Origin: Variovorax sp. PAMC 28711 | Lineage (GTDB): Bacteria; Pseudomonadota; Gammaproteobacteria; Burkholderiales; Burkholderiaceae_C | Reading direction: 5' to 3' | Assembly (NCBI RefSeq): GCF_001577265.1 | Contig: NZ_CP014517.1 | Location: forward strand, 1,789,001-1,853,000 | DNA: 64,000 nucleotides | Shown: one piece after another, positions 7,411 through 64,000 of the stretch | How the letters are laid out: every line of letters begins with the position of its first letter | How positions within the stretch are numbered: position 1 is the first letter of the stretch | The notes under the pieces: generated by a model | Databases searched by the model: none | What the model was told of the DNA's origin: nothing | Seen by the model: the letters and a program-made list of their open reading frames with translations, nothing else | Made by a program: the position numbers and the translations under genes

Positions 7411-8526
<1,116 letters not shown>

Positions 8527-46533: not shown

Positions 46534-46959
46534 TCAGACGAGTTCGAACAGCACGTCCTGCGCGCCTTCCCACAGCACCTTGGTGCCGAGTTCGCGAAGC
46601 TGCTCCTTGCCTTCGACGATGGTCAGGAAGTGATTGCCGGCCAGCTGCCCCATCTTGCTGGCGAAGCTGCAGGCGCCGTAGGCCCAGATGATTTCGGTCT
46701 CGCTGTAGCCGCCCGGATAGAACAGGATGTCGCCCACCGACGGATGGCTGGTGTGGTTCTCGAAGCCGACAGGCACGCCGTCGTTCTCGAGCTTGAATTC
46801 GCCGAGTGGCACCCAGCAGCCTTCGCCGCTCCAGCGCACATGGATGAGCTTTTGCCGGTACGGCAGCAGCTTCGAGAACGCCGCCACGGTGAGCGGCGCG
46901 TCGGGATGGGTTTCGGCGATGAACTTGAGGCCGCCGGCGGTGATGTTGAGACGGGTCAT
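46534..46959 (-). CDS. DUF3830 (cyclophilin-like) protein, operon A
   Basis: Protein of 141 aa matching the cyclophilin-like DUF3830 family. Recognisable parts are FSKLLPYRQKLIHVRWSGEGCWVPLG, VGDILFYPGGYSETEIIWAYG and GNHFLTIVEGKEQL. No enzymatic activity is established for the family. It is the last gene of the ten-gene operon, 16 bp after the deaminase-type gene. Start is the ATG at 46959. Confidence 0.8.
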   Translation of the reverse strand: MTRLNITAGGLKFIAETHPDAPLTVAAFSKLLPYRQKLIHVRWSGEGCWVPLGEFKLENDGVPVGFENHTSHPSVGDILFYPGGYSETEIIWAYGACSFASKMGQLAGNHFLTIVEGKEQLRELGTKVLWEGAQDVLFELV

Positions 46960-46975
46960 GGAAGGGTCTTTCGGG

Positions 46976-48451
46976 TCAGTTGCAGCAGCCACCGAAGCCG
47001 GTGTGCCGATAAAAAGGGGCGAGGTCTTCGGCCAGTTCGCCGACGACGGTGCGCCAGTGTGCATGCGCGCCATCGGCCGCCAGCGCCGCCCGCGTGCGCG
47101 CCAGGAGTTCGGCACGCAACGCGGGCTCGTCGATGCCGGTCACGCGGCCCGCATCGACCACCGTGCGGCCGCCGATCAGCACCTTCGCGATGTGCCGGCC
47201 GTTCGCGCGGGCGAGCAGCAGGTCGAGCGGGTCGGTGTCGGGGAACAGCGCGTCGTCGTCGAGCGCATCCCAGTCGAGCAGCACGAGGTCGGCCGGCGCA
47301 CCGACCGCAATGCGCCCGCGCGACGCGAAACGCCAGAGCTGCGCCGGCGTCATGGTCGTGTCGTAGCCCCAGCCGCGGTGCAGCGAATAAGCGAGCCGCG
47401 CTTCGCGCAGCGCGTCGTCGTCTTCGTCGAAGGCCATGCCGTCGAGGCCCATCGCCACGCGACAGCCTTGCTTCAGCATTTCCGGCAGCGGCGCGATGCC
47501 CGACTTCAGGCCGAGGTTCGAGCTGGTGTTGACCGCGATGGTCGCGCCGCGCTCGGCGATCAGCGCGAGTTCATCGGGGCGCGCCCAGGTGCAGTGCGCG
47601 AGCGTGAGCCGAGGCGTCAACAGGCCGATGCTGTCGAGGAACTTCACGATGCCGCCGGGGTGCGCCTCGTCGGCCCAACGGCGCTGGTATTGCGTTTCGA
47701 GCAGGTGCATGTGCACCGGGCGACCGGTGTTGGCCGAAGCCTGAGCGATGGCTTCGAGCAGCGGCGTGCTGCACCACTGCACGGCAGCGGGGCCGTACTG
47801 CACGGAGACGTGCTCGCCATCACCGCCCGCTTCCACCATGGCCGCGACTTCGTCGACCAGCGCGAGCTGCTGCGCGGGCGCCACCGGCTTCACCGACAGC
47901 CGTGCAGCCACTGCCTCGCGGATGCCGGGCCGCAGTGCGCCCAGCGCGGTGGCGTCGTCGCAGTACGCGATGCCGTTGCGGTCGCGCATCGCGATCGCGA
48001 AGCCGATGCGCACGCCGACATCCCTGGCGGCGCGCGCGACCGCGCGGGCTTCGTCGACGTAAGGCATGCCGCCCTGCACGCGGGTGTAGTGAACCATCAG
48101 GTCGGCGACGCCGTTGCGCACCGAGCGTGCGAACGACGTGGCCGCGCACAGGTACGGGTCCATGCCCGGCACCACGCCGAGAAAGGGCAACCAGGTTTCC
48201 AGCGGCTGGCCGAACGCGCCGAGCGTCGCGCTGCGAAAGGTGCGTGCATGGTCGTGCGCATTGGCCAGTGCCGGCAGCGCCAGCTGGCGACGACCGGGAA
48301 CGGCCGCCGGCAACGATTCGATGGCGGCGACACGCCCGTCGGCGATGCCGATGCGCACATCGCGTTGTACCGGTGCCGACCCCGGATCGGCCAGCACCCA
48401 GGCGCAGTCGAAGCTGGAATCGGTCGTGGGGGTCGTGGAAGTCGTCGTCAT
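46976..48451 (-). CDS. Amidohydrolase/deaminase (AtzA/TrzN/cytosine-deaminase-type), operon A
   Basis: Metal-dependent amidohydrolase of 491 aa. Metal ligands are seen in ANAHDHARTF (HxH), HMHLLETQ (His), LAHCTW (His) and GLDGMAFDED (Asp). The family removes amino or chloro groups from purines, pyrimidines and s-triazines, or deaminates adenosine derivatives. Start is the ATG at 48451, overlapping the stop of the binding-protein gene as ATGA. Together with the ring-opening hydrolase in the same operon it could deaminate a heterocycle before ring cleavage; this is inferred. Confidence 0.82.
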   Translation of the reverse strand: MTTTSTTPTTDSSFDCAWVLADPGSAPVQRDVRIGIADGRVAAIESLPAAVPGRRQLALPALANAHDHARTFRSATLGAFGQPLETWLPFLGVVPGMDPYLCAATSFARSVRNGVADLMVHYTRVQGGMPYVDEARAVARAARDVGVRIGFAIAMRDRNGIAYCDDATALGALRPGIREAVAARLSVKPVAPAQQLALVDEVAAMVEAGGDGEHVSVQYGPAAVQWCSTPLLEAIAQASANTGRPVHMHLLETQYQRRWADEAHPGGIVKFLDSIGLLTPRLTLAHCTWARPDELALIAERGATIAVNTSSNLGLKSGIAPLPEMLKQGCRVAMGLDGMAFDEDDDALREARLAYSLHRGWGYDTTMTPAQLWRFASRGRIAVGAPADLVLLDWDALDDDALFPDTDPLDLLLARANGRHIAKVLIGGRTVVDAGRVTGIDEPALRAELLARTRAALAADGAHAHWRTVVGELAEDLAPFYRHTGFGGCCN

Positions 48452-49500
48452 TTCATGGCGATTTTGCGTTCTGCCGCCGGGGGCAGGAAGCGGCGGTCGA
48501 ACACCTCCGCAGCGGTCGGCACGCGTTGCAGGTCGAACGCCTCCTTCAGCTGGATGAAGGACCGTGCAAAGCGTGCATCGCTCACATCGCCGAAGCCGTT
48601 GGCCGCCACCTCGGGCGTGAGCATGATGGTCTTGAGCGTGTACAGCAGCCGGCGTTTTTCCAGGTCCTTGTTGAGCAGCGGCTCGCGCTTCATCAGCGCG
48701 GCGATGGCGGCGTCCGGGTCGGCGGCGGCGTCGCGCACGCCCTTGTGGATCGCGCGCACCAGGCCGGCCACGGCCTGCGGCTTGTCCTTGATGAGCTGCG
48801 GCGACACCATCACGCCGTTGCCGTAGAGCTCCACGCCGTGGTCGGCGTAGTGGAACCAGCGGATGTCCTTGTCGGGGTCGAGCCCCTGCGCGACCAGGTT
48901 CATGTAGCTGGTCACCGAGAACACCGCAGAGCCGTCGACATGGCTCTTGAGCATCAACTGCTCCTGCAGGTTGGGCGCGACGTTGGTCCACTTCACCTTC
49001 GAGGCGTCGACGCCGCTCTTGGCGGCCATCACCGGGAACATACGCGCTGCGGCGCCGCCCGCGGGCGTGCCGATGGTGCGGCCCTCGAAATCGCGCAGGG
49101 TCTTGATCGGGCTGTCGGCCTTCACGATGAGCGCGAACGGCGCGCGGTTGTAGACCATGTAGACCATCACCGGCGCCGCGCCAGGCTTGGCCGATGCGTT
49201 CTGGATGACGGCGTTCACGTCGCCGAAGCCGGCCTGGTAGGCGCCCGCCATGATCTTGGTGACCGTGGCGGCCGAGCCGTCGCCCTGGTCGATGGTCACG
49301 GCCAGTTTTTCCTGGGCGAAGTAGCCGCGGTCTTCGGCCAGGTAGTACCACGCGTGGATGCCTTGCAGCTTCCAGTCGAGCACGAACTTGATCGGCGTGA
49401 CGGCTTGCGCCTGTGCCGGTTGCGAGGGCATGAAGGCCGCAGAGGCGGCCAGTGCGGCGACGGCGAGCGTGACGCTGCGACGGGAGACAGGACGGTCCAT
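48448..49500 (-). CDS. ABC transporter substrate-binding protein (NMT1/SsuA type), operon A copy 1
   Basis: Periplasmic binding protein of 350 aa. The signal peptide (to about AQA at residue 32) has an RRS twin-arginine-like start. The NMT1 core is KFVLDWKLQGIHAWYYLAEDRGYF and GAYQAGFGDVNAVI. It is paralogous to the protein at 54622, with many shared motifs such as SPIKT..FEG and MKREPLL. Relatives bind pyrimidine precursors, sulfonates or nitrate. It is encoded directly after the permease gene. Confidence 0.88.
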   Translation of the reverse strand: MDRPVSRRSVTLAVAALAASAAFMPSQPAQAQAVTPIKFVLDWKLQGIHAWYYLAEDRGYFAQEKLAVTIDQGDGSAATVTKIMAGAYQAGFGDVNAVIQNASAKPGAAPVMVYMVYNRAPFALIVKADSPIKTLRDFEGRTIGTPAGGAAARMFPVMAAKSGVDASKVKWTNVAPNLQEQLMLKSHVDGSAVFSVTSYMNLVAQGLDPDKDIRWFHYADHGVELYGNGVMVSPQLIKDKPQAVAGLVRAIHKGVRDAAADPDAAIAALMKREPLLNKDLEKRRLLYTLKTIMLTPEVAANGFGDVSDARFARSFIQLKEAFDLQRVPTAAEVFDRRFLPPAAERKIAMK

Positions 49501-49540
49501 GGAATCTTTCTGTGAATGGGTGGCGGAGGGGGCGACGGGC

Positions 49541-50323
49541 TCAGCCCATCGCCATGTCGGTCTTGCGCTGCGACCAGCCGGTCATGCGCTGCTCGACCAG
49601 CGACGACAGCGCATAGAGCACGATGCCCATCGCCGCCAGCAGGAAGAGGCCGGCGAACACCATCGGCACGTCGAAGTTGCCGCTGGCGATCATCATCACC
49701 GTGCCGATGCCCTTGTTCGACGCCACCGTCTCGGCCAGCACGGTGCCCACGAAGGACAGCGTGATCGCGATCTTGAGCGATGCGAACAGGTAGGGCAGCG
49801 CGCGCGGCAGGCCGACGTTCCAGAGGATGTCGCGCTTCCTTGCGCCGAGCACCTTGAGCACGTCTTCCAGCTCGGGCTCGGTGCTGGCGAGGCCGGTCGC
49901 CACGTTCACCACCACCGGGAAAATGCTGATCACCATCGAGGTGAGGATGGCCGGCACCGTGCCCGCGCCGAACCACACGACGAAGAGCGGCACCACCGCC
50001 ACCTTCGGGATGCTGGAGAAGCCGACCAGCAGCGGATAGGTCACGTCGTAGGCCAGCTTCGACGAGCCGATGCCGACACCGATCACGATGCCCGCCAGCA
50101 CGCCGAACGCGAAGCCGACGAAGGTGGTGTAGAGCGTTTGAAGCGCGTGCGGCCACAGGAGCGGCATCTTCTCGATCAGCACCTTCGCGATCTGGCTCGG
50201 GCGAGGGAGGATGAGGTCGGACACATTGAACGCCAAGCAGACGACTTCCCACAGCAGGAAGAAGCCGACGAAGGCGCCGACGGACAGCAGGCGCTGGCGC
50301 ACGAGCGGCGAGAGCGCGTTCAT
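49541..50323 (-). CDS. ABC transporter permease (SsuC/TauC type), operon A
   Basis: Inner-membrane permease of 260 aa with about six helices. The EAA-like loop is LASTEPELEDVLKVLGARKRDILWNVGLPRALPYLFASLK. The first helix is VGAFVGFFLLWEVVCLAF. It overlaps the ATPase gene by four bases. With the ATPase and either binding protein it makes an importer of NMT1/SsuABC type. Start is the ATG at 50323. Confidence 0.9.
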   Translation of the reverse strand: MNALSPLVRQRLLSVGAFVGFFLLWEVVCLAFNVSDLILPRPSQIAKVLIEKMPLLWPHALQTLYTTFVGFAFGVLAGIVIGVGIGSSKLAYDVTYPLLVGFSSIPKVAVVPLFVVWFGAGTVPAILTSMVISIFPVVVNVATGLASTEPELEDVLKVLGARKRDILWNVGLPRALPYLFASLKIAITLSFVGTVLAETVASNKGIGTVMMIASGNFDVPMVFAGLFLLAAMGIVLYALSSLVEQRMTGWSQRKTDMAMG

Positions 50324-51198
50324 GCCGCCACCTCTTCGACTTTGGAAGCCACGGCCGCAGGCGGCGTCGCATCGCCATCGCGCCGCGCATCGGCGATGCG
50401 CATGCGCAGTTGCTGCACCAAGAGCGCGAACTCGGGCGCGTAGCTGCTCTCGAGCGTGCGCGGCCGCGCGAACCCGACGTCGCGCGTCTCCAGGATGCGG
50501 CCGGGCCGCGAGCTCATCACGCAGATGCGGTTGGCGAGGTAGGCCGACTCGCGCAGGTCGTGCGTCACCAGCAGCACCGTCGGGCGCCGGTCCATCCAGA
50601 GCTTCTGCATGATGTCCCAGAGCTCCTCTCGCGTGAACTGGTCGAGCGCGCCGAAGGGCTCGTCGAGAAGCAGCAACTCGGGGTCGTGGATCAGCGCGCG
50701 GCACAGCGATGCGCGCTGCAACATACCGCCCGACAGTTGCCAGGGCCGCTTCTCGCCGAAGCCCTTGAGGCCGACCTGCGCGAGCAGCGCTTCGACGCGG
50801 TCGGTGTACTCGCCCTTCTTCTTCTTGCGGAAATCCTGGCGGAACGGCTCGACGATCTTGAGCGGGATCATCACGTTGTCGCGGATCGTGAGCCAGGGCA
50901 GCATCGTCGGGTTCTGGAACGCCAGGCCGACGCGCAACCGCGGCGAGGCCGACGCATGCACGCCCGACGGCTGCGTGCCGACCGCGCCCACCTCGCGCCC
51001 GCCGGCGATCACCACGCCCGCGCTCGGCCGCAACAGGCCGGCGACCAGCTTCAGGATGGTCGACTTGCCGCAGCCGCTCGGCCCGACCAGCGCGACGAAG
51101 TCGCCCTCGTCGATGCCTAGCGTCGTGTGGTCGAGCGCGACCGTGCCCGCGCCGTAGCGCAGCATCACGTCGGACAGTTGGATGAAGGCGTTGCGCAT
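50320..51198 (-). CDS. ABC transporter ATP-binding protein (SsuB/TauB type), operon A
   Basis: ATPase of 292 aa. Walker A is GPSGCGKST, the signature LSGGMLQR, Walker B LLLLDEPFGALD, and the switch His VTHDLRE. Two unusual parts stand out: a roughly 20-residue insert before the Q-loop (EVGAVGTQPSGVHASASPR) and a KKKK stretch after it. Start is the ATG at 51198, 8 bp after the ring-opening hydrolase stop. Confidence 0.92.
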   Translation of the reverse strand: MRNAFIQLSDVMLRYGAGTVALDHTTLGIDEGDFVALVGPSGCGKSTILKLVAGLLRPSAGVVIAGGREVGAVGTQPSGVHASASPRLRVGLAFQNPTMLPWLTIRDNVMIPLKIVEPFRQDFRKKKKGEYTDRVEALLAQVGLKGFGEKRPWQLSGGMLQRASLCRALIHDPELLLLDEPFGALDQFTREELWDIMQKLWMDRRPTVLLVTHDLRESAYLANRICVMSSRPGRILETRDVGFARPRTLESSYAPEFALLVQQLRMRIADARRDGDATPPAAVASKVEEVAA

Positions 51199-51206
51199 GG
51201 AGGCTT

Positions 51207-52325
51207 TCAGTGGGCAGCGATGGCGAAGATGGCGGCGACCGGGCCGCCGCCGGGCGGGCCCTGGTGCTCGGCGCCGCCGGACACGTACAGCGCGGTGCGA
51301 CCGACCACCGAGGCCAGCACGCCGCCGACCGCCGCGCGGGCATGCCGCGTCGAATTGATGTCGGAGTCGTTCAGCATGGTGTGGCGCGCGTCGCGCACCT
51401 GGCCGCTCGGGCTGGCCTCGGCCTTGGCCAGCAGGTTCACAAGACGCGCAGCGATGGCATCGGCATCGCGCTCGGGGTCGAGCCCGAACGCGTCGCGCAG
51501 CATGCGGCGCACGCTCGCGGCGTCGATCGCGTCCTGCATCACCGTGTGCGCGATGCGAAAGCGCGACGCACTGCGGGCCGATTCGCCGAGCACGATGACC
51601 ACGTTGCCTTCGAGCTCGATGCCGGCCGAGGCCGAGGCGCGTGCCGAGTACAGCGTGGGATCGTGCAGGATCGTCGCCTCGTCGATTGCATCGAATTCGC
51701 CGAGCGCGAGCCCGACGCCGAGCGACGAAGCGCCGCGCGACCAGCCCATCGATTCGTAGGTGTCGCGCGTCACGGTGGCGGCGCCGCGCTGCTGCGCCGC
51801 GAGCACCTTGGCCGAGGTGAGCAGCGGGCACTTGATCTGCACGAAGTGCACGTCGGCCACGTCGTCGATGCCGGCATCGCGCATCGCGGCGCGCACCGCG
51901 TCGGCGGTGGCCTCGACCTGGGCCATGCGGCCGATCTCTTCCGGTGCGAAAGCGCGCGTGTGCGCGGTCCCGATCACGAGGCGCTTCTCGCCCGCGGTGT
52001 CCGACGCTTCGACGCTGCCGCGCGTGAACACGGTGAAGTGCGGCGACAGCACGCCCTCGGTGCCGCCCGACATCACGAGCGCGACGCGGTCGTGCACCGC
52101 ATCGGCCGTGCAGCCGAGATGCGGCGCCAGGAAGTGGCACCAGGCCGTGGCCGCGAAGTCGCGCGTGAAGTCGTTGACGCAGCCGTTGCCTTCGGTCTTG
52201 CCCATGACCGCCACGATCTGTGCGGGGTCGAGCTTCTTACCGTCAATCAGCGCCTGCACGCCCGACAGGTCGGACGGTCCGCTGCAGGCCACGCGGAACA
52301 CGTCGACCTTCTGCACCGCCGTCAC
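51207..52325 (-). CDS. Cyanuric acid hydrolase/barbiturase-family ring-opening amidohydrolase
   Basis: Enzyme of 372 aa in the AtzD/TrzD/Bar fold of three similar domains, each with a Ser-Lys dyad. Visible pairs are Lys43 (MGKTEGNGC) with Ser86 (MSGGTEG), Lys165 (VQIKCPLL) with Ser233 (SASAGIE), and about Lys302 (LLAKAEAS) with Ser350 (YVSGGAEHQG). Arg55 and Arg197 fit the substrate-binding positions. The family opens cyanuric acid to carboxybiuret or barbiturate to ureidomalonate; sequence alone does not decide which. Start is a GTG at 52325, overlapping the upstream stop. Confidence 0.88.
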   Translation of the reverse strand: MTAVQKVDVFRVACSGPSDLSGVQALIDGKKLDPAQIVAVMGKTEGNGCVNDFTRDFAATAWCHFLAPHLGCTADAVHDRVALVMSGGTEGVLSPHFTVFTRGSVEASDTAGEKRLVIGTAHTRAFAPEEIGRMAQVEATADAVRAAMRDAGIDDVADVHFVQIKCPLLTSAKVLAAQQRGAATVTRDTYESMGWSRGASSLGVGLALGEFDAIDEATILHDPTLYSARASASAGIELEGNVVIVLGESARSASRFRIAHTVMQDAIDAASVRRMLRDAFGLDPERDADAIAARLVNLLAKAEASPSGQVRDARHTMLNDSDINSTRHARAAVGGVLASVVGRTALYVSGGAEHQGPPGGGPVAAIFAIAAH

Positions 52326-53782
52326 AGCGCGTCCACCAGCGGCACCGCGTTCGGCGGAATGCCTTCCGGCGCCTCGCCGATCGCGCTCATGTAGTGCTCC
52401 ATGTTGCGCGGCTTGGCCGTCGGCATCTTCTGGATGCCCTTGACCGAGCGGCCCCAGCCGACTGCATCGGTCACGAGCTTGCCATCGCGCATCATGAAGC
52501 GGCCGCGCAGCAGCGTGTGCAGCGGGTAGCCCTGCACCGCGCGGCCGTTCCACGGCGATATCTTGCTGATGCTTTGCAGCTTGTTCTGCGACAGCGTGCC
52601 GGCACGCGCCATGTCCACGAAGGCGATGTCGGCGTGCGCACCGGGTGCGATCACGCCCTTGGTGCCGTACAGGCCCCAGGCCTTGGCCGGCGCGACGGAA
52701 CTCCACTTGACGTAGTCCATCAACGAAGCGCGGCCGCGGTTCACTTCGGTGAGCATCAGCGGCATCTGCGTCTCGACGCCGGGGAAGCCGCAGTCGCACT
52801 CCCAGATGTTGGCGCGCGTCTTTTCCTCGGGCGCGTGCGGCGCGTGGTCGGTCGCGATCATGTCGAGCGTGCCGTCCATCAGCGCGTCCCACAGCGGCTG
52901 GTTGTGGCGGGCCTCGCGGATGGGCGGGTTCACACGCATCACGCCGCCGAGCTTCAACATGTGGTCGGTGTTGAGCAGCAAATATTGCGGGCAGGTCTCG
53001 GCCGTCACGTCGACGCCGCGGCGCTTGAACTCGCGCAGCAGGTAGAGCGAATCGGCCGCGCTGTGGTGCGCGATGTGCACCCGCGCGCCGGTCCATTCGG
53101 CCAGCGTGAGCACCCGATTGATCGCCTCGATCTCGGCCACCGCGGGCCGCGCGGCCAGGTGCGCCATCGCGTCGATGCGGCCGGACTCCTGCAGGTGCTT
53201 CTGGCGGCGGAACAGGATCGACGAGTTCTCGGCATGCACCACCGTGCGGATGCCCAGCGGCGCCAGGATCTCGAAGCCCTCGAGCAGCGCGCCGTCGCTC
53301 GGCGCCGGCAGGTTGCCGAAGGTGTTGCCGACGAAGGCCTTGAAGCTGGTCACGCCCGCGTCGAGCATCGCCTCGAGCTGGTCGATGCTGTCGTCGCCGA
53401 GCAGGCCGTGGATGCCGAAGTCGCAGTACGACGACTCGGCCGCCTTCAGCTTGATTTTCAGCGCCTCGACGGTGCCGGTCGGCGGGTTGGTGTTGGGCAT
53501 CTCGAACACCGTCGTCACGCCACCGAGCGCGGCCGCGGCCGAACCGGTCTTCCAGGTTTCCTTGTTCGGATAGCCGGGGTCGCGAAAGTGCACGTGGCTG
53601 TCGATCGCGCCGGGCAGCAGGTAGAGGCCGTCGGCGCGCATCTCTTCGCGCGCGGCCGGCATCGTGTCGTCGTGGCCGACCGCGACGATGTGCTCGCCGG
53701 AAATCGCCACGGAGGCTTCGATGATCTGGTCCGGCGACACCACGTGGGCGCCACGGATGACGAGGTCGACTTCTTTGCTCAT
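52322..53782 (-). CDS. Allantoinase/dihydropyrimidinase-type amidohydrolase, operon A
   Basis: Cyclic-amide hydrolase of 486 aa. Binuclear metal site: His63 and His65 (DSHVHFRDPG), carboxylated Lys148 (SFKAF), His183, His239 (HIAHHS) and Asp312 (ATDHAPH). The GYPNKETW segment resembles allantoinase/dihydroorotase-like AllB more than hydantoinases. It would open a hydantoin, dihydropyrimidine or allantoin-like ring. It is coupled by a four-base overlap to the cyanurate/barbiturate hydrolase gene, which suggests successive steps or alternative substrates. Start is the ATG at 53782. Confidence 0.88.
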   Translation of the reverse strand: MSKEVDLVIRGAHVVSPDQIIEASVAISGEHIVAVGHDDTMPAAREEMRADGLYLLPGAIDSHVHFRDPGYPNKETWKTGSAAAALGGVTTVFEMPNTNPPTGTVEALKIKLKAAESSYCDFGIHGLLGDDSIDQLEAMLDAGVTSFKAFVGNTFGNLPAPSDGALLEGFEILAPLGIRTVVHAENSSILFRRQKHLQESGRIDAMAHLAARPAVAEIEAINRVLTLAEWTGARVHIAHHSAADSLYLLREFKRRGVDVTAETCPQYLLLNTDHMLKLGGVMRVNPPIREARHNQPLWDALMDGTLDMIATDHAPHAPEEKTRANIWECDCGFPGVETQMPLMLTEVNRGRASLMDYVKWSSVAPAKAWGLYGTKGVIAPGAHADIAFVDMARAGTLSQNKLQSISKISPWNGRAVQGYPLHTLLRGRFMMRDGKLVTDAVGWGRSVKGIQKMPTAKPRNMEHYMSAIGEAPEGIPPNAVPLVDAL

Positions 53783-53801
53783 GCGGTTGCTCCTGGCGGG
53801 T

Positions 53802-54593
53802 TCAGAGTGCAGCCCAGCCGCCGTCGACGGGGAGGTCGACGCCGGTGATCTGTCTGGACACTTCGCTCGCCATGAAGAGGCAGGCGTTGGCAATGTCGGC
53901 ATCGGTCGACACGCGCTTGAGTGCGTAGTCGGCGGCGTGGCGCGTCATCGCTTCTTCGAGCGTGATGCCCAGCTTCTCGGTCATGTTGGCGCACACCTTC
54001 TCGCGAAAGCGCGGGCCGTCGACCATGCCGGGCGCGACGTTGTTCACGTTGATGTTGTAGGGGCCGGCTTCGAGCGCGAAGCTCTTGGTGATGCCGCGCA
54101 GGCCCCACTTCGACGCGGAGTACGCCATGCGACCCGCGCGCCCGCGCAGGCCGAAGGTGCCGCCCACGTTGACGATTTTTCCGCTCTTGCGTTCGATCAT
54201 CGACGGCAGCACCGCGTGGATCGTGTTGAAGCAGCCCGTCATGTTGAGCTGCACGATCTCGTTGAATTCTTCGGCGGTGGTTTCCCACCCCGTCTTGCCG
54301 ATCGGTCCCGAGCCGCCGGCCACGTTCACCAGCACGTCGATGCGGCCGAAGGCTTCGAGTGCCTTCACTGCCAGCGCCTCGGTCTGCGCCGGCGCGGTCA
54401 GGTCGCAGGGCACCACGATCACATCGACGCCGAGCGCGCGCGCTTCGGCGGCCACGGGTTCGATGGCGGCGGTGTCGCGGCCGGCCAGCACCAGCTTCGC
54501 GCCTTCGCGTGCGAAGGCCAGCGTGATGGCGGCGCCCATGCCCTTGGCCGGGCCGGTGATGAGCGTCACCTTGTCTTTGAGTTGCAGGTCCAT
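53802..54593 (-). CDS. SDR-family oxidoreductase, operon A
   Basis: Short-chain dehydrogenase of 263 aa. The cofactor loop TGPAKGMGAA is slightly unusual (Pro-Ala for Gly-Ala). NVAGG replaces NNAG, the catalytic region is VGGTFGLRGRAGRMAYSASKWGL, and the end is GVDLPVDGGWAAL. It may oxidise or reduce an intermediate of the ring-degradation pathway. Start is the ATG at 54593. Confidence 0.88.
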   Translation of the reverse strand: MDLQLKDKVTLITGPAKGMGAAITLAFAREGAKLVLAGRDTAAIEPVAAEARALGVDVIVVPCDLTAPAQTEALAVKALEAFGRIDVLVNVAGGSGPIGKTGWETTAEEFNEIVQLNMTGCFNTIHAVLPSMIERKSGKIVNVGGTFGLRGRAGRMAYSASKWGLRGITKSFALEAGPYNINVNNVAPGMVDGPRFREKVCANMTEKLGITLEEAMTRHAADYALKRVSTDADIANACLFMASEVSRQITGVDLPVDGGWAAL

Positions 54594-54621
54594 GGCGTGG
54601 GTCTCTCGTTCGTGGCAGTGA

Positions 54622-55641
54622 TCAGTTGGAGGTCTTGGAGGGGCGGTCGGCGCGGGCCGGCAGGAAGCTGCGATCGAAGATCTCGCCCGCGGTCGGCGTG
54701 CGCGGCAGGCCGTTCGCCTCGACCACGATCGCGATGTCTTTCGTGAGCCGTGCGTCGTCCACGTCACCGAGGCCGATGCGCGCGATCTCGGGGTGGCTCA
54801 TGTCGTTCTTGAGCGTGGCGATGAGCTTTTCTTTCTCGACATCGCGCTTCAACAGCGGCTCGCGCTTGATGGCGTAGTCGACGCCGGCGTCCGGGTTGGC
54901 GATGACTTCCTTCACCGCGCGGTTGAGGGCTTTCACGAAACCGGCGACGGCTTTCGGGTTCTCCTTGACGAAGCTCTTGGCGAAGAACACGGTGTTGGAA
55001 TACAGGTCCATGCCGTAGTCGCCGTAGCGAATGAAACGCAGGTCCTTCGCCGGGTCGAGGCCCATGCCCTTGGCGCTGAAGCTCACCGTGGTGACGTAGC
55101 CGAAGCCCGCGTCGATCTGGCCGCGCGACAGCATTTGCTCCCGCAGGTTGGGCGCCATGTTGGTGATGGTCACCTTGCTCGCGTCGATCTTGGCGATCTT
55201 GGCGAAGGCCGGGAACAGCTTCAGCGCGCCGTCGTTGGCCGGGCCGCCGATGGTCTTGCCTTCGAGGTCCTTCGGCGTCTTGATCGGGCTGTCGCTCTTC
55301 ACCACCAGCGTGAAAGGCGGCGTGTTGTAGAGCATGTAGACGCCCACCGGTGCATCGGCCGGCCGCTTGGAGGCGAGATCGATCAGCGCGTTGATGTCGC
55401 CGAAGCCGGCCTGGTAGGCACCGGCCGCCACCTTGGGGATGGACGCCGCAGAGCCCTCGCCCTGGTCAATGGTCACGTCAAGGCCTTCTTCCTTGAAGTA
55501 GCCCTTGTCCTGCGCAAGGAAGAACCACGACTGCGCGCCTTCGTACTTCCAGTTGAGTACCAGCTTGATGGGCGTCTGCGCGGCGGCGGGCGCGGCGATG
55601 AAGGCGAGCGCGAGGCCGCAGGCGGTGAGAAAGGCTTTCAT
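54622..55641 (-). CDS. ABC transporter substrate-binding protein (NMT1/SsuA type), operon A copy 2
   Basis: Periplasmic binding protein of 339 aa with a clear signal peptide (to AAAQT at about 22). The NMT1 core is KLVLNWKYEGAQSWFFLAQDKGYF and GAYQAGFGDINALI. It is clearly paralogous to the protein at 48448, yet only one permease/ATPase pair is present, so both may feed the same importer with different ligands. It begins 3 bp after the cysteine hydrolase stop. Confidence 0.88.
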   Translation of the reverse strand: MKAFLTACGLALAFIAAPAAAQTPIKLVLNWKYEGAQSWFFLAQDKGYFKEEGLDVTIDQGEGSAASIPKVAAGAYQAGFGDINALIDLASKRPADAPVGVYMLYNTPPFTLVVKSDSPIKTPKDLEGKTIGGPANDGALKLFPAFAKIAKIDASKVTITNMAPNLREQMLSRGQIDAGFGYVTTVSFSAKGMGLDPAKDLRFIRYGDYGMDLYSNTVFFAKSFVKENPKAVAGFVKALNRAVKEVIANPDAGVDYAIKREPLLKRDVEKEKLIATLKNDMSHPEIARIGLGDVDDARLTKDIAIVVEANGLPRTPTAGEIFDRSFLPARADRPSKTSN

Positions 55642-55644
55642 GGA

Positions 55645-56502
55645 TCAGGACTCCCGGGGTTTGGATGAAGAAGAAGAACGTGGCGAAGCAGGCAACGCGC
55701 GCATCAGCGACGCCGCACTGCCCACGAAACCGTGCAGCAGCTCGACGATGTAGAGCACGCCCTGGGTGACGTAGGCCGGCGACGGCGTGCTGCAAGCGTC
55801 TTGCAGCAGCACGCAGTCGTAGCCGAGAAAGTTGGCGTCCTGCAGCGTGGAGAACACGCAGCGGTCGGTGTTGATGCCGGCGAACAGCAGCGTGGTGATG
55901 CCTTGCTGGCGCAGCAGCGTGTCGAGCTCGTTGTCCCAGAAGCCGCTGAGACGGTGCTTGTGCACCGTGATGTCGGCGGTCGACACCGCGAGCGCGTCGA
56001 TCACCTTCGCGCCCCAGGAGCCCTGCACCAGCGACGGCCCGTGGTCGATCGGCGAATGGTCGGCATAGCCCACGCCCTCGGCGGTGCGCTTGCCCTTGAA
56101 CTGCACCGTCGGCGCCAGGTTGCGCTTGTCGGCGCGGATGCCCCAGTTGAGCCACACCACCGCGCCGCCGGCCTGGCGCCACGCGGGCAACAGCGCCTGC
56201 AACACAGGGATCGGCTTGCGCGCGGCCTGGGTGCCCAGGCCTTTCTGCGCGAACCAGCCTTCGGGGTGGCAGAAGTCGTTCTGCATGTCGACCACGATCA
56301 GCGCGCTGCGCGCCAGGTCGATCTCGACCGCCTGCGGCGCGGCGTCGGCGATCAGCACCGGCCGCGGCTTGGGCGACCTGCGCACGAAGCTCACCTTGTC
56401 CCCCTGCAGCTGCCAGGCGTTGTGCGCGGCGGGGCCGAATGCCACCGATTCGGGCATGACAGGCGCCGACTTGGGGCGGGAAACGCGCGATGGGGCTTTC
56501 AT
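55645..56502 (-). CDS. Isochorismatase-family cysteine hydrolase, first gene of operon A
   Basis: Cysteine hydrolase of 285 aa. The catalytic triad is Asp72 in VVDMQNDFC, Lys182 in TVHKHRLSGF and Cys215 in GINTDRCVF. An N-terminal extension of about 60 residues is longer than in plain isochorismatases. RutB-type relatives cleave ureidoacrylate in pyrimidine catabolism and BiuH-type relatives cleave biuret; this copy is closer to neither by eye. It is the promoter-proximal gene, divergent from the LysR gene. Confidence 0.85.
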   Translation of the reverse strand: MKAPSRVSRPKSAPVMPESVAFGPAAHNAWQLQGDKVSFVRRSPKPRPVLIADAAPQAVEIDLARSALIVVDMQNDFCHPEGWFAQKGLGTQAARKPIPVLQALLPAWRQAGGAVVWLNWGIRADKRNLAPTVQFKGKRTAEGVGYADHSPIDHGPSLVQGSWGAKVIDALAVSTADITVHKHRLSGFWDNELDTLLRQQGITTLLFAGINTDRCVFSTLQDANFLGYDCVLLQDACSTPSPAYVTQGVLYIVELLHGFVGSAASLMRALPASPRSSSSSKPRES

Positions 56503-56566
56503 GCTCCAACCTACGCACCCACCGTGCCAAAGCGCGCTTCTCTTTGCCGCCTTATCGCGCTACCCG

Positions 56567-56585
56567 CGTTGCCGAAACGGCAACG
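56567..56585. promoter_or_regulatory. LysR-type operator between operon A and its LysR gene
   Basis: Perfect palindrome CGTTGCCGAAACGGCAACG with the T-N11-A core of LysR boxes. It lies 65 bp from the operon A start and 35 bp from the LysR start. Confidence 0.65.
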
Positions 56586-56619: not shown

Positions 56620-57525
56620 ATGAACCACCTTCGCCTGCTGCGCTACGTCGATGAGGTGGCGCGTGTCGGATCGATCCGCCAGGCCGCCGAACGGCTGCAC
56701 GTCGCGCCCTCAGCGGTGAACCGCCGCATCCAGGACATCGAGGACGAACTCGGCACGCCGATCTTCGAGCGCCTGCCGCGCGGCATGCGCCTCACCGCCG
56801 CGGGCGAACTCTTCGTGCGCTACATCCGCGGCCGCGCCGCCGACCTCGACCGCGTGCGCTCGGAGATCGAAGAACTGCAGGGCCTGCGCCGCGGCAGCGT
56901 GCGGCTGGTCGCCAGCCAGGCACTGGCGCCGCGCTTTTTACCCGGCGTGATCCAGGCGTTTCGGGAGACGCATCCGCTGGTCGGCTTCGAGGTGCGCATC
57001 GGCGACCACGTGCAGGCCGCGAGCGCGCTGCGCAGCTTCGAGACCGACCTGGCGCTGGTCTTCAACCTCGCGCCCGAAGCCGACATCGAGCGCACCAGCG
57101 TCGTCGAACAGCAGCTGATGGCCATCATGCATGCCAGGCACCCGCTCGCGCGCAGCGGTGCGGCCCTGCGCATGCGCGACTGCGCCGATTACCCGGTCGT
57201 GCTGCCCAACCGCGACACCGGCGGGCGGCAACTGCTCGAACGCTTTCTGGCGCGCAGCTCCACCAGGATGCACGCGATGGTCGAGAGCAACAGCTTCGAG
57301 TTCTTGCGCGGCTGCCTCGATGACAAGCAATCCATCTCGTTCCAGATGGCGATCGGCGCGCCGGCCGACGGCGGCGACATCGTCGCGCGCGAGATCGAAG
57401 ACCGGGGGTTTCCGAAAGGGGAGATGGTGCTGGCGAGCTTGCGGGGGCGGCAGCTGCCGGTGATTGCCTATGCCTTCGCGGAGTTCTTGCGTGAACGCCT
57501 TGGGGAGCTTGCTCAAAAGCCGTAG
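56620..57525 (+). CDS. LysR-family regulator of operon A
   Basis: LysR protein of 301 aa. The helix-turn-helix is VARVGSIRQAAERLHVAPSAVNRRIQDIE, followed by FERLPRGMRLTAAG and an effector domain. Start is the ATG at 56620; the frame is open for hundreds of codons upstream but those overlap operon A. It is divergent from operon A across the palindrome at 56567-56585. Its C-terminal part closely resembles the LysR fossil at 59113. Confidence 0.92.
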   Translation: MNHLRLLRYVDEVARVGSIRQAAERLHVAPSAVNRRIQDIEDELGTPIFERLPRGMRLTAAGELFVRYIRGRAADLDRVRSEIEELQGLRRGSVRLVASQALAPRFLPGVIQAFRETHPLVGFEVRIGDHVQAASALRSFETDLALVFNLAPEADIERTSVVEQQLMAIMHARHPLARSGAALRMRDCADYPVVLPNRDTGGRQLLERFLARSSTRMHAMVESNSFEFLRGCLDDKQSISFQMAIGAPADGGDIVAREIEDRGFPKGEMVLASLRGRQLPVIAYAFAEFLRERLGELAQKP

Positions 57526-57602
57526 CCCTTTGCGCTGCGCCCTCCTACATGCAAAGCGCCTTTCGCTGCGAATCATCGGCGTCCCACTCACAAGGAACAG
57601 AC

Positions 57603-58139: not shown

Positions 58140-58330
58140 GCGGCAGAATATCCTGCATGCCAGATACCCTCGCAGCGATGTTTGACGTCGTCCGCAAAGG
58201 CGTTTTCTTCAATGCGGTTCCAGACCTTGTCGCTCCCGGCCCTGGAATCCCTTGAAACGGCGAGGATGTGCAATGGGACAGACGTCCACGGCCGCGATGC
58301 GCAAGAATCGCGGTTTACAGGATATTCGTC

Positions 58331-59275: not shown

Positions 59276-60025
59276 TCACCCCGCCGCGTGCCGCGCCAGA
59301 TGCACCTGGTGCAGCGTGATCTTCCGCACCTCCGCCTGGCTCGTCTCGATGTGCGCGCGCAGCAGCATCGCGGCCTGGTCGCCGCGGTGGGCGCGGATGG
59401 CCTTGAGGATCTTGGCGTGTTCGTCGTAGGTCGCGTCGATACGCGGCTGCTTGGTGAAGTCGAGCCGTCGGATGATGCGGATGCGGTCGGTCACGTCGCG
59501 GTGCACGCGGGCCATCTCGGCGTTGCCGGCGGCGGCCACGAGTGAGCAGTGGAATTCTTCGTCCCGCTGCGCGACCTGCGGGGCGTCGGTGCTGCGTTGT
59601 GCGTTCGGCACCAGCCAGATGTTCACCAGCGTCTCGAGTATTGCGCGGTCGATGTGGCGGTCGGTCTCGCAGAGGCGGTGTGCGGCGGTGGTCTCCAGCA
59701 CCATGCGCAGGTCGTAGAGCTGCTCGAAGCGCTCGAAGTCGAAGGGCAGCACGCGCCATCCGCTGCGAAACAGCACTTCGACGAAGCCTTCCTGCTGCAG
59801 CTTGAACAAGGCTTGCCGCACCGGGGTGCGCGAGACGCCGAGGCGCTCGCTGATCTCGCCTTCGGTGAACCGGTCGCCGGGCACGAGGCGGAACTCGGCG
59901 ACGTCGCGCTTGAGCTGCGCATAGACCTCGTCGGCCAGCGTGCGAAAGAGGGCGGGGTCGACGGTGGCGACGGGCGTGGCGACAGCAGCGGTCACAGGTG
60001 CGGAGCGGGAGCGAACGGTAGACAC
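59276..60025 (-). CDS. GntR-family (FCD-domain) regulator, operon B
   Basis: Regulator of 249 aa. The winged helix-turn-helix lies in FTEGEISERLGVSRTPVRQALFKLQQEGFVEVL (about 50-85) after an N-terminal Ala-rich extension of about 30 residues. An FCD effector domain follows (LYDLRMVLE, DEEFHCSLVAAAGN, EHAKILKAIRAHR). As the last gene of operon B it probably regulates that operon. FCD regulators usually respond to a pathway carboxylate. Confidence 0.9.
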   Translation of the reverse strand: MSTVRSRSAPVTAAVATPVATVDPALFRTLADEVYAQLKRDVAEFRLVPGDRFTEGEISERLGVSRTPVRQALFKLQQEGFVEVLFRSGWRVLPFDFERFEQLYDLRMVLETTAAHRLCETDRHIDRAILETLVNIWLVPNAQRSTDAPQVAQRDEEFHCSLVAAAGNAEMARVHRDVTDRIRIIRRLDFTKQPRIDATYDEHAKILKAIRAHRGDQAAMLLRAHIETSQAEVRKITLHQVHLARHAAG

Positions 60026-60034
60026 CGGCGGATG

Positions 60035-60721
60035 TTAGTCGTTGATGCCGCGTGGCAAGGCCGCGAGCAGCAAGCGGCTCGGTGCCGTCCAGCCGACGAT
60101 GGCGCCCTGCGCGCGGATCATGTCGATGGCCGCCGCCTTGAAGGCCGGGAAGTAGCTCTCGGTGCAGTCCTCGAGCAGCAGGCCGTCGTAGCCGCGGTCG
60201 TTGGCTTCGCGCATCGAGGTCTGCACGCACACCTCGGTGGTGACGCCCCCGAACAGCAGGTGCGTGATGCCGCGCGCCTGCAATGTTTCGTGCAGCCCGG
60301 TCGCGTAGAACATGCCCTTGCCGGGCTTGTCGATGACAAGCTCGCCGTCCATGGGTGCGAGCGCATCGATGATCTGGTTGCCGGGCTCCCCCCTCACGAG
60401 GATGCGGCCCATCGGGCCTGCGTCGCCGATGCGCAAAGTGGGGTTGCCGCGGTTCAGCTTGGCGGGCGGGCAGTCCGACAAATCCGCCTTGTGCGCCTCG
60501 CGCGTGTGCACGACCAGGCCGCCCGCAGCGCGCCACGCTTCGAGCACGGCCTTCGTCGCCGGCACGATGGCTTCGAGCAGCGCAACGTCGTTGCCCAGCG
60601 TTTCACCGAAGCCGCCGGGCTCGATGAAGTCGCGCTGCATGTCGATGAGGACGAGCGCGGTCTTCGCGAGCGCGAAGTCGTAGGCGAACGGATTCGCATC
60701 GATGTGAAGTGTCGTGGTCAA
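60035..60721 (-). CDS. Isochorismatase-family cysteine hydrolase, operon B
   Basis: Cysteine hydrolase of 228 aa. The triad is Asp27 in LIDMQRDF, Lys132 in [10 protein letters not shown] and Cys165 in [10 protein letters not shown]. It shares the [21 protein letters not shown] and IDKPGKG blocks with the biuret-hydrolase-like protein at 62289, so the two are paralogues with probably related C-N substrates. Start is a TTG at 60721, overlapping the ABC gene stop. Confidence 0.85.
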
Positions 60722-62292
60722 TGGTGGCCTCCGCCCATGTGCGCGCCGAGCACGTGGCGCTCGGCCGTGGCGGCGGGTGTTTCGAACACGACGCGCCCTT
60801 CGCTCATCACCACCATGCGGTCGGCGAGTTCGAGCAGTTCGTCGAGGTCTTCGCTGATGAGCAGCACCGCACCGCCCTTGTCGCGCACCTGCAGGATGCG
60901 CGAATGGATTTCCGCGACCGCCGCGAAGTCGAGCCCGAACACCGGGTTGGCGGCGATCAACACATCGATGTCGCCGGCCAGTTCGCGCGCCAGCACCGCG
61001 CGCTGCACGTTGCCGCCCGAGAGGCTGCGGATGGGCGCGCCCTCGCCTTGCGTCTTGACGCCGTACTCGGCGATCCATTCGCGTGCGCGCGATCGCCACG
61101 CAGAAAAGTTGAGGAAGCCCGCACGCGCCAGCGGCGGCTCGTCGAAGTCGCGCAGCGCCATGTTCTCGGCCACGCTGAGGTCGCCGACGCACGCGTTGCG
61201 CAGCGGCTCTTCGGGCAGGCTGCGCACCTTGAGCCGGCGGTTCTGTTCGCGCGTGGCGTCGTAGGGCGACCCGCGCACCGTGACCTTGCCGGACAAGCGC
61301 GGGCGCTGGCCGACCAGTGCTTCGACCAGCTCACGCTGGCCGTTGCCCGACACGCCGGCGACGCCGAGAATTTCGCCGGCGCGCACCGCGAGGCTGAGGT
61401 CGTGCACGGCCAGCGTGCCGCGGTCGCCCATCGCCTGCAGGCGATCGACGTCAAGCGAGACCTGCGCATCGGCTGCGACGGCCTTGTGCATGGGCCGCCC
61501 GGTGCCGGCCTTCGCTGCGGCAGGTTCAGCCGATGCGCTCTCGCCCATCATCGCGGCGGCCAGCTGCGCCGGCGTGGTCTCGTCGACGCGGCAGTGGTGC
61601 ACTGCCTTGCCGCGCCGCAGCACCGTCACGCTGTCGGCGTACGCCATCACCTCGCGGAACTTGTGCGTGATGATGAGCACGGTGCACCGGCCGCTGCGGG
61701 CGAACTTGCGCACGTGGCCCAGCACCTCGTCGGCTTCCTGCGGCGTGAGCACCGAGGTCGGTTCGTCGAGGATCAGCAGCCGCGGCTTCAGGTACAGCTG
61801 CTTGAGCAGTTCGAGCTTCTGCTTCTCGCCGGCCGCGAGCGACGCGGGCGTCACGTCGAGGTCGAGACTGAAGGGCGTGGTCGCAAGGAAGGCTTCGAGC
61901 TCGGCGCGTTTCACTTTCCAATCGATCAGCGCGGGCGTCTTGCCGCCGGCCAGCAGCAGGTTCTCGGCCACCGTCATGCCCGGCGCCAGCGTGAAGTGCT
62001 GGTAGACCATGCCGATCCCGAGCGCGCGCGCGACGATCGGATTGGCGATGTCCTGCTCGCGCCCGTCGATCAGGATGCTGCCCTCCTCCGCGCGCTGGAA
62101 GCCGGCCACGCACTTCACCAGCGTGCTCTTGCCCGCGCCGTTCTCGCCGAGCAGCGCGTGCACGGTGCCGGGCTCGACATGCATCGTCACGTTGTCCATC
62201 GCGGTGAAGGCGCCGAAACGCTTGGTCAGCTGGTAGGTGTCGAGCGCGAGGGCGCCGGTGCCGGCGGGCAAGGCGCCGATGGGGGTGTTCAT
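60718..62292 (-). CDS. ABC transporter ATP-binding protein, two nucleotide domains (BMP/nucleoside type), operon B
   Basis: Tandem ATPase of 524 aa. The first half has Walker [10 protein letters not shown], an LAAGEKQK signature and Walker [13 protein letters not shown]. The second half has GVSGNGQRE in the Walker A position (degenerate), signature LSGGNVQR and a weak Walker B ([12 protein letters not shown]). This layout is typical of nucleoside/BMP-family importers. The matching permeases and binding protein are not in the window and may lie to the right. Start is the ATG at 62292, overlapping the upstream stop. Confidence 0.9.
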
Positions 62293-62987
62293 GGTGTGCT
62301 GGCTCCAACGGCATCGAGCAGCGCGCTCGATTCGGCATGCGCGCCGAACACGCCGCCCTGCATCGTGATCATCTTCAGCGCGGCGAGGTGGTTGCCGTGG
62401 TCGGTCGCGGCCGTGCAGTCCGAGAGCAGCAGGCATTCGAAGCCACGGTCGTTGGCGTCGCGCATGGTGGTGTGCACGCACACGTCGGTGGTGATGCCGG
62501 TGAGGATCAGGTTCTCGATGCCGCGCGTGCGAAGGATGAGTTCGAGGTCGGTCGCGTAGAACGAGCCCTTGCCCGGCTTGTCGATGACGACTTCACCGTC
62601 GAGTGGCGCCAGTTCGGAGATCAGCTCCCAGCCCGGCTCGCCGCGGATGAGGATGCGGCCGCACGGCCCGTCGTCGCCGATGCCCACGCCGTTGGCGCCG
62701 ATCTGGCGCGAGCGCCAGCGCTTGTTGGGCGGCAGGTCGGCCAGATCAGGCCGGTGGCCTTCGCGCGTGTGAATGATGTGGAAGCCCAGAGGCCGCAGCG
62801 CCGCGAGCGTGCGCTGGATCGGCGCGATCGGCGCCTGCACCAGCGACAGGTCGTAGCCCATCACGTCGACATAGCCGCCCTGGCCGCAGAAGTCGGTCTG
62901 CATGTCGATGACGATGAGCGCGGTGTTCTCGGGGCGCAGGTCGCGGTTGTACGGCCACGCATAGGGTTGGGCGTTGACGGTGGTCAT
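62289..62987 (-). CDS. biuH: Biuret amidohydrolase-like cysteine hydrolase
   Basis: Cysteine hydrolase of 232 aa. The triad is Asp28 (VIDMQTDF), Lys137 (VIDKPGK) and Cys170 ([10 protein letters not shown]). The blocks [57 protein letters not shown] and [11 protein letters not shown] agree, from memory, with the characterised Rhizobium biuret hydrolase BiuH. That enzyme converts biuret to allophanate and ammonia. Substrate assignment is from family resemblance only; ureido-acid hydrolases are alternatives. Confidence 0.7.
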
Positions 62988-62994
62988 GCGGTCG

Positions 62995-64000
62995 TCACGG
63001 GGCCGTCAGTTCGTCGGGCTCGGGCGGGGCCATGGCCGGAATCTTCGGCACCAGCGGATGCGACTCGGGGCCCTTGTAGGCGCGCACGGGCGCACCGAAG
63101 CCGCAGCTGGTGCCGTCGGTCACCTTCACCTGGTCGCTCCACGGGAGCTTGTAGGTGCCCGACGCCATGTCCTGCATGTAGGTGTACGGAAAGTCCTGCG
63201 CCCCGCCCTTCACCGCCACGTACCCGCGGTGGTAGAGCTGGTAGATGTTGTTCTCCACGCCCCAGCCGGTGCGCGCTTCGCGCACGAGGTCGGGCAGCAG
63301 CTCGCAGGTGATGATCTCGTCGACCCGGCCGCCGCCTTCGACCATCACGGTGCCGTCGAAGCTGCAGAACATGCCCTCGCCCATCGAGTCGAAGGTGCCG
63401 TCGCTGCCGCACATGCACACGCTCGCGGTGTAGGCCAGGTTGCAGAAGGCGTTGGCCTGGTTGGTGATCTTCCAGGCGTGGCGGATGGGTGCGGTGTATC
63501 CCGCTGTGCGGAGGATGATCTCGGCGCCCTTGTACGCCGCCTCGCGCGCCATCTCGGGCAGCATGCCGTCGTGACAGATGATCAGCGCGAGCTTGCTGCC
63601 GTTGGGCCCGTCGCACACCGGCACGCCGAGGTTGCCCGGCTCCCACGGCTCGACCGGCACCCACGGATGCATCTTGCGGTAGTACAGGCGGATGGCGCCC
63701 ATGTCGTCGATGATCAATCCGCTGTTGTACGGGTTGCCATCAGGGTTGGCTTCCATGATCGAGAAGCAGCCCCAGATGGTGTTGTCGATGCAGGCCTTGC
63801 GGAAGGCCGCGACCTCGGGCCCGTCGAGCGTGCACATGATCTCGGGCGAGGTGTCCATCGACAGGCCGTGCAGCGAATACTCCGGGAACACGACGAGGTC
63901 CATCGTGCCCTGGTTGCGCCGCGCCTTGGCGACGAGTTCGACGATGCGCGCCGTCTGCGCCGCCAGTTCTTCGGATGTGCGCACCACCGGCAACTGGCAT
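62995..64000 (-). CDS. amiF: Formamidase (AmiF-like nitrilase-superfamily amidase), partial
   Basis: Nitrilase-fold enzyme, at least 335 residues, cut by the right window edge; the frame runs through to 64000 (CQLPVV near the edge). The catalytic Glu-Lys-Cys lie in [20 protein letters not shown] and [18 protein letters not shown]. The [15 protein letters not shown] block is specific to aliphatic amidases/formamidases. Formamide to formate plus ammonia is the likely reaction. First visible gene of operon B, 7 bp before the biuret-hydrolase-like gene. Confidence 0.82.

Follow-up and report, generated by a model that had tools for sequence, protein, structure and literature searches.

A conserved operon of Variovorax sp. 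PAMC 28711 pairs a probable AtzD-family cyanuric acid hydrolase with a dihydroorotase-like enzyme, an importer and a DUF3830 protein

The 64,000-nucleotide window analysed here, from the soil-type bacterium Variovorax sp. PAMC 28711, contains an operon on the minus strand, running from 56502 to 46534, in which a probable cyanuric acid hydrolase is encoded together with a dihydroorotase-like enzyme, other hydrolases and an ATP-binding cassette (ABC) importer. The operon very probably serves to import and split nitrogen-rich rings as a source of nitrogen, and cyanuric acid is one likely substrate. On balance we lean towards a single nitrogen-scavenging regulon controlled by a LysR-family protein, in which an AtzD branch for cyanurate and a second branch for a companion compound would share one importer. 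The gene set, the assignment of AtzD, a neighbouring cyanurate/biuret island, the conservation of the operon and a shared palindrome are supported by sequence comparison. An earlier note, made from the letters of this DNA, had described a contiguous minus-strand operon of ten genes with spacing from four-base overlaps to 40 bp. All ten genes are complete and in frame among the open reading frames of the window, and the gaps along the operon are 3, 28, 19, -4, 8, -4, 40, -4 and 16 bp. The gene families that were named at that time are confirmed by Pfam, which finds isochorismatase, NMT1 (twice), adh_short, Amidohydro_1 (twice), Amido_AtzD_TrzD, ABC_tran, BPD_transp_1 and DUF3830 in the ten proteins. 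The features of the operon and its upstream region are as follows.

56620..57525 (end approximate), plus strand: putative LysR-family regulator, LysR-like by reading, frame starting MNHLRL, divergent from the operon
56567..56585, no strand: 19-bp palindrome CGTTGCCG-N3-CGGCAACG, proposed LysR operator from its position and recurrence
55645..56502, minus strand: isochorismatase-type cysteine hydrolase (CysH), RutB-like (PF00857; RutB is the best PDB match)
54622..55641, minus strand: NMT1-type substrate-binding protein 1 (SBP1; PF09084)
53802..54593, minus strand: short-chain dehydrogenase/reductase (SDR; PF00106, YSASK motif)
52322..53782, minus strand: dihydroorotase-like cyclic amidohydrolase (TIGR00857 passed; HVHFR, MPNT and DHAPH motifs)
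51207..52325, minus strand: probable cyanuric acid hydrolase of the AtzD family, GTG start (NF052395; active-site residues)
50320..51198, minus strand: ABC transporter ATPase (PF00005)
49541..50323, minus strand: ABC transporter permease (PF00528)
48448..49500, minus strand: NMT1-type substrate-binding protein 2 (SBP2; PF09084)
46976..48451, minus strand: TRZ/ATZ-type metal-dependent deaminase, an amidohydrolase (PF01979; conserved His/Asp; predicted model)
46534..46959, minus strand: DUF3830 protein (PF12903)

The ten-gene arrangement is beyond chance, and the possibility that these genes are chance neighbours is ruled out by their conserved order across loci. Conservation of the order had been set beforehand, in the earlier note, as the test on which the proposal could fail. 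AtzD relatives are encoded in 429 stretches of species genomes, of which the best 80 loci were kept. These loci and stretches from further genomes gave 30 loci with a dihydroorotase-like gene, some of them near-duplicates (L014 and L042, for example). In 23 of the 30 the genes for CysH, SBP1, SDR, dihydroorotase-like enzyme, AtzD, ATPase and permease lie in one order and on one strand. The exceptions are L013, which is without CysH, L029-L031 and L035, in which AtzD is on the opposite strand, L097, in which AtzD stands apart, and L005, in which the contig is cut. The complete ten-gene order is found in the window and in five of the 30 loci (L006, L007, L008, L009 and L100), and several contigs stop before the end of the operon. 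By identity limits, AtzD is present in 30 loci, SDR in 29, CysH in 28, SBP2 in 21, DUF3830 in 20, the amidohydrolase in 16 and a LOG-family gene in 14, counts that are partly limited where contigs or stretches are cut short (for L098, for example, the amidohydrolase sits in L104). The taxa include Variovorax, Rubrivivax, Rhodoferax, Aquabacterium, Pigmentiphaga, Verticiella, Limnohabitans and others.

Since most of these loci were retrieved via AtzD, a sample of 299 genomes of the family is a fairer test of co-occurrence. The dihydroorotase-like gene was found in 7 of them (E up to 1e-140) and an AtzD-family match in 14, one of which is a fragment. All seven fall within the 14 AtzD-positive genomes, for which the chance in a random draw is about 9e-11 if kinship is ignored. 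A class-wide sample, which is too broad for this purpose, gave 2 of 369 genomes (E up to 1e-120). Outside these samples, a Skermanella plasmid carries the core including AtzD. CysH is missing there and an acetamidase/formamidase is present, and after these genes come another ABC importer and an AtzE-like amidase (43% identical). A Natronorubrum region encodes a 40% relative of the dihydroorotase-like protein, and none of the other operon genes were seen there.

The 51207-52325 protein is most likely a cyanuric acid hydrolase rather than a barbiturase because it passes the NCBI cyanuric acid hydrolase model NF052395 (536.4 bits, cut-off 360) and has active-site residues of the cyanurate type. 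In the PDB it scores up to 412 bits against solved cyanuric acid hydrolases versus 278 bits against barbiturase. Three Ser-Lys pairs, Lys43/Ser86, Lys165/Ser233 and Lys301/Ser349, are present; the residues were located by motif in the 4bvq alignment, in which published and aligned numbering differ by 0-2. A cyanurate specificity signature of Arg195, Thr321, Arg325, Gly345 and Gly346 has been reported, with Asn, His, Lys, Val and Ser/Ala at these positions in barbiturase (PMC3758960, in excerpt). The window protein has the cyanurate set as Arg197, Thr326, Arg330, Gly350 and Gly351, again placed by motif. The barbiturase set was not found in it, and a barbiturase identity is rejected on the active-site residues. 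There are 36 operon-linked AtzDs, meaning those with a gene for a dihydroorotase-like enzyme, SBP2 or the amidohydrolase no more than 12 kb away. Ten of the catalytic and signature positions are conserved in every one of them; the other two are conserved in 35, with one gap. A quick tree of 89 AtzDs places 35 of the 36 in one clade of 46 rows, together with four AtzDs that lie beside atzE and atzH. No other AtzD-family gene is present in the Variovorax sp. PAMC 28711 genome. The earlier proposal of uptake and stepwise hydrolysis of a nitrogen heterocycle fits this evidence, and of its candidate substrates cyanurate is supported for the AtzD-type enzyme, whereas the active-site signature contradicts barbiturate.

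AtzD genes were also observed in other settings. In three Burkholderiales metagenome-assembled genomes (L034 3088, L037 1122 and L038 3348) the genes after AtzD are two large conserved ones (~935 and ~786 amino acids), and operon enzymes are absent. In L083, L080, L078, L081 and L041, which are outside the operon, AtzD adjoins matches to the binding protein, ATPase or permease of an ABC importer of the same kind, likely a cyanurate transporter judging from this position. The AtzD frame of Pigmentiphaga L044 (9965-10993) is ~45 residues shorter than that of its close relative L018. Genomes G543 (C1:1310482 and C13:76508) and G424 (C1:223425 and C1:4203779) each have two extra AtzD-family genes, one of which is distant (201 and 188 bits).

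The second ring-opening enzyme, encoded at 52322-53782, had been called allantoinase/dihydropyrimidinase-type in the earlier note. It is a cyclic amidohydrolase, and this label needs to be refined. The protein shares the family domain and metal-ligand motifs of the dihydroorotase/allantoinase/hydantoinase amidohydrolases and passes TIGR00857 pyrC_multi (325.2 bits, cut-off 279.05), a model that matches in all 14 control genomes and exceeds its cut-off in 11. It misses the allantoinase model TIGR03178 by 0.9 bits (357.0, cut-off 357.85). It differs from these relatives in being encoded in a catabolic operon, and it falls under every dihydroorotase equivalog cut-off among the best 25 of 58 families (NF006559, for example, 359.5 vs 482). 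Its near relatives keep the HVHFR, MPNT and DHAPH motifs. Arg67, Asn97 and His316 sit in motifs of these types (by motif, not by residue alignment), which we take to be the ones that hold the dihydroorotate-binding Arg, Asn and His. An aligned L-hydantoinase and two aligned allantoinases are without the Arg, Asn and His of the dihydroorotase kind. In dihydroorotases these three residues bind dihydroorotate, as Arg20, Asn44 and His254 do in E. coli (PMC8659124, in excerpt). Excerpts of PMC3880350, on a type I dihydroorotase, name no residues that bind the carboxylate. Because residues of the dihydroorotase type are kept, the substrate is probably a carboxylate-bearing cyclic ureide. L126 was taken as the genome's own dihydroorotase, and the HxH motif was not found in it. 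The available part of PMC6015842 mentions a Polaromonas plasmid on which a dihydroorotase-related gene occurs along with a cyanuric acid hydrolase.

The closest PDB match of CysH is RutB of the Rut pyrimidine pathway, yet CysH does not pass the RutB model TIGR03614 (128.5 bits, cut-off 377.95; 378 when rounded), and no RutA-like gene was found among the ten operon genes in the Pfam results. The BiuH model NF050097 is not passed either (112.5 bits, cut-off 370). CysH likely removes a carbamoyl group because its best alignment is with RutB and the Asp, Lys and Cys motifs are present in the homologues shown (31 aligned). A role as the biuret hydrolase of the operon was ruled out by score and alignment; a BiuH that passes the model is encoded in the adjacent island. 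In the deaminase-type amidohydrolase His66, His68, His249, His286 and Asp337, which are presumably the metal ligands, are invariant in 35 sequences. Its predicted model, with a predicted local distance difference test (pLDDT) score of 88, is nearest to methylthioadenosine (MTA)/adenosine deaminases, AtzA, TrzN and isocytosine deaminase. The SDR has the YSASK (YxxxK) motif in the homologues shown (35 aligned) and a Gly at the usual position of the catalytic Ser.

DUF3830 passes PF12903 (104.8 bits, cut-off 26), and the earlier suggestion that this protein would gain a context is borne out. A plasmid search gave 38 records; 15 regions were inspected, of which 13 are annotated. A dihydropyrimidinase, amidohydrolase, allantoin or urate gene is close by in 12 of the 13, the exception being Thalassospira, and in 9 of 10 when three regions picked for AtzD or dihydroorotase-like genes are left out. 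Hydantoin, dihydropyrimidine and urate genes recur beside it. In one unannotated region (L114) a dihydroorotase-like gene and DUF3830 are ~9 kb apart; in the other (L113) no dihydroorotase-like match was found. The best matches of the predicted DUF3830 model are the Pictet-Spenglerases KslB and McbB and the uncharacterised cyclophilin-like 3kop, ahead of true cyclophilins. With a pLDDT of 62, the match to a cyclophilin-like fold is a lead only.

Variations in the accessory genes were also seen. A LOG-family (TIGR00730) gene, possibly for a phosphoribohydrolase, lies in or beside the operon in L018, L022, L024, L028, L030-L033, L035, L040, L097 and L101-L103, often between the permease and DUF3830; the copy in L044 is ~8 kb off. 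In L024 (13921-15420), L028 (11.7 kb) and L102 (3.4 kb) a second, distinct TRZ/ATZ-type amidohydrolase comes after DUF3830, and the operon's own amidohydrolase was not seen in these three loci. The Paracoccus plasmid L120 has two adjacent DUF3830 genes (7504-8423) near a ureidoglycine aminohydrolase gene.

The LysR-like gene starts ~117 bp upstream of the first operon gene, and LysR homologues are beside the operon in 29 of the 30 loci with a dihydroorotase-like gene, although in L011 and L099 the distance exceeds 2.5 kb. The palindrome, which the LysR protein may bind, ends at 56585, the last base of the range given in the earlier note, and the perfect 19-bp form is a single copy in the 4.32 Mb genome. 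Its core, with at most one mismatch, precedes the first operon gene in 24 of the 29 loci that have both LysR and dihydroorotase-like genes. Four loci (L018, L032, L033 and L044) have SBP2 upstream of LysR, apart from the operon, and in all four a copy of the palindrome is found 160-270 bp before SBP2; in L032 and L033 the amidohydrolase follows this SBP2. Loci that lack operon genes, mostly from Bradyrhizobium and 794 kb in total, contain no copy. Taken together, these positions suggest that the two modules are probably one regulon.

Beside the operon, to its right, lies the cyanurate/biuret island (locus L086), which is on the minus strand and partly beyond the end of the window. The part within the window has the following features.

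59276..60025, minus strand: GntR-family regulator at the near end of the island (77% identical to a GntR + FCD homologue)
60038..60754, minus strand, start uncertain: triuret-hydrolase-like cysteine hydrolase, accompanying BiuH as TrtA does (NF050097 250.7 bits, under the cut-off of 370)
62292..62987, minus strand: biuret hydrolase BiuH (NF050097 412 bits, cut-off 370)
62998..64000, minus strand: formamidase, runs off the end of the window (561 bits, cut-off 406)

Beyond the window are a BMP-type ABC transporter, an AtzH/HpxZ homologue (206 bits, cut-off 135), AtzE (681, cut-off 461), a second ABC ATPase and permease of the kind found in the operon (36% and 27% identical to the operon's) and AtzF (763, cut-off 487). 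The operon and the island, or the visible part of it, stand side by side in the window, in L012 (where the operon is cut to three genes), L016, G581, G543 and G621. In Rhodoferax L021 and L026 the island runs atzF-atzE-atzH-atzD-BMP and on, with its own atzD included. The genome of the window, G543 and G621 have an island without atzD at that site, and the adjacent operon carries it; in the island of G543 an atzH match was likewise not seen. In Xylophilus L020 a lone atzD comes after GntR, where Variovorax carries the operon. Among the 17 operon genomes allophanate hydrolase is over the cut-off in 16 and BiuH in 12; BiuH is over its cut-off in none of the 14 control genomes. Between LysR and the island GntR, window positions 57549-59098 hold a small gene that reads as flavin-reductase-like and another that reads as class II aldolase-like.

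On this reading the two branches would operate as follows. SBP1 and SBP2 may both serve the single ABC importer, which would take up cyanuric acid and a companion compound that is co-imported and co-induced with it and handled by the other enzymes. AtzD would open the ring of cyanuric acid, giving carboxybiuret. From this the island's AtzE, AtzH/HpxZ homologue and AtzF could produce ammonia and CO2; alternatively, carboxybiuret may lose CO2 and be handled by BiuH and AtzF. On the companion branch the deaminase-type amidohydrolase might remove an amino group, the dihydroorotase-like enzyme would open the carboxylate-bearing cyclic ureide, and CysH would strip the carbamoyl group from the opened product, a tentative order of steps. 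The SDR may oxidise or reduce an intermediate, and DUF3830 may have a part in the same catabolism.

Several observations weigh against this account. BiuH is under its cut-off in 5 of the 17 operon genomes, one genome (G667) is also without an allophanate hydrolase over the cut-off, and allophanate hydrolase is common in the family (104 of 299 genomes). AtzD served as bait for most of the 30 loci, so its presence there is favoured, and the AtzDs of L097 and L109 are long, divergent branches. Two Azospirillum plasmid regions have the core with no AtzD in the fetched region and with an acetamidase/formamidase replacing CysH, thus AtzD is not essential to the core. No palindrome precedes the operon in 5 of the 29 loci (L029, L030, L031, L035 and L097), and none was found before the AtzD-SBP2-amidohydrolase run of L035 or L027. 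A second copy of the 17-bp core, also perfect, lies in an unrelated place (G000:C1:1258467-1258483, L138). With up to 2 mismatches the 19-bp palindrome occurs at 18 places in the genome versus 26 for the reversed control, and with up to 1 mismatch the core occurs at 3 versus 10. Reversed controls occur at least as often as near-copies, so the argument from the palindrome rests on its position, and a wider regulon in the genome is not claimed. As a separate observation, the neighbours of the second core copy appear by reading to encode a c-type cytochrome and a small secreted protein.

It is also conceivable, though unlikely, that two independent pathways share the operon and importer and have no chemical link, one for cyanuric acid and the other for reductive catabolism of orotate/dihydroorotate by the SDR, the dihydroorotase and a carbamoyl-aspartate hydrolase. 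In L029-L031, L035 and L097 AtzD is separate from the other module, which agrees with this, as do the Azospirillum cores without AtzD, and dihydroorotase-type residues and a RutB-like hydrolase would suit orotate chemistry. However, the palindrome also precedes the SBP2 genes upstream of LysR, AtzD accompanies the dihydroorotase-like gene in every one of the seven family genomes that have it, and the orotate reductases known to us are flavoproteins, not SDRs. A single linear pathway, in which one larger imported compound is degraded with cyanuric acid or an analogue as a late intermediate, is quite unlikely. It would explain the single regulator, the co-occurrence and the two ring-openers, but AtzD is absent from the two Azospirillum versions and, to our knowledge, no single known compound accounts for all the steps. 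Purine degradation of the allantoin type, with the 52322-53782 enzyme as an allantoinase, is very unlikely: the TIGR03178 score is just under the cut-off, allantoinase is among the best PDB matches and relatives are annotated allB, but Arg67, Asn97 and His316 are of the dihydroorotase kind that the two aligned allantoinases lack. Barbiturate or oxidative pyrimidine catabolism, in which the AtzD-like protein would be a barbiturase, has the common protein family and pyrimidine-type companion genes in its favour and is made extremely improbable by the cyanurate signature, the absence of the barbiturase signature and the PDB scores.

For the preferred reading of one regulon with two branches, a natural context can be suggested. 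Uric acid gives triuret and cyanuric acid when it is oxidised (PMC7948467, in excerpt). This remark and the company of the genes are the reason for proposing that the regulon could be a salvage system for chemically oxidised purines, which is speculative and, in our judgement, unlikely to be correct as it stands. In such a system AtzD, the TrtA-like protein, BiuH and HpxZ/AtzH would be joined to the deaminase and the carbamoyl hydrolase, and the dihydroorotase-like enzyme would open a carboxylated cyclic ureide such as oxonate or a hydantoin carboxylate. The LOG-type product (14 of 30 loci) could release damaged bases from nucleotides, and DUF3830 might represent a new, small enzyme for breaking down cyclic ureides. 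The literature search found nothing joining oxonic acid and cyanuric acid in bacteria.

The earlier note did not recognise the gene set as a described pathway, and no description of this operon was found among the matches listed in the literature search. Parts of it resemble known systems. AtzD ring opening is common to the window and to atzDGEHF of Pseudomonas sp. ADP, and AtzE, AtzH and AtzF homologues are nearby. Unlike in atzDGEHF, as far as it is described in the available portion of PMC6219798, the atzD of the window is apart from these genes and is accompanied by the deaminase, the dihydroorotase-like enzyme, the RutB-like hydrolase, the SDR, the NMT1 importer and DUF3830. The island has the same arrangement as the atzF-(ABC)-atzGEH clusters of Comamonadaceae, namely Rhodoferax and Variovorax, in that 2018 paper, whose available text states that atzGEH clusters are rarely associated with atzD; here, in contrast, atzD is beside or inside the island. 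The BiuH-TrtA biuret/triuret pathway (PMC7948467 and PMC5806882, both in excerpt) is likewise matched by BiuH, the TrtA-like neighbour and transporters in the island, whereas the operon CysH fails both the BiuH and RutB models and aligns best with RutB.

Cyanuric acid is a product of weed-killer breakdown. The operon would supply a ring-opening enzyme for clusters of the Comamonadaceae atzF-ABC-atzGEH type, and a second ring-opening module would be linked to cyanurate catabolism by the shared palindrome and by co-occurrence. The identity of the second substrate may indicate a natural source of cyanuric acid that maintains these genes outside herbicide-treated soil. DUF3830, which was not found under that name in the literature searched, gains a repeatable setting in cyclic-ureide catabolism.

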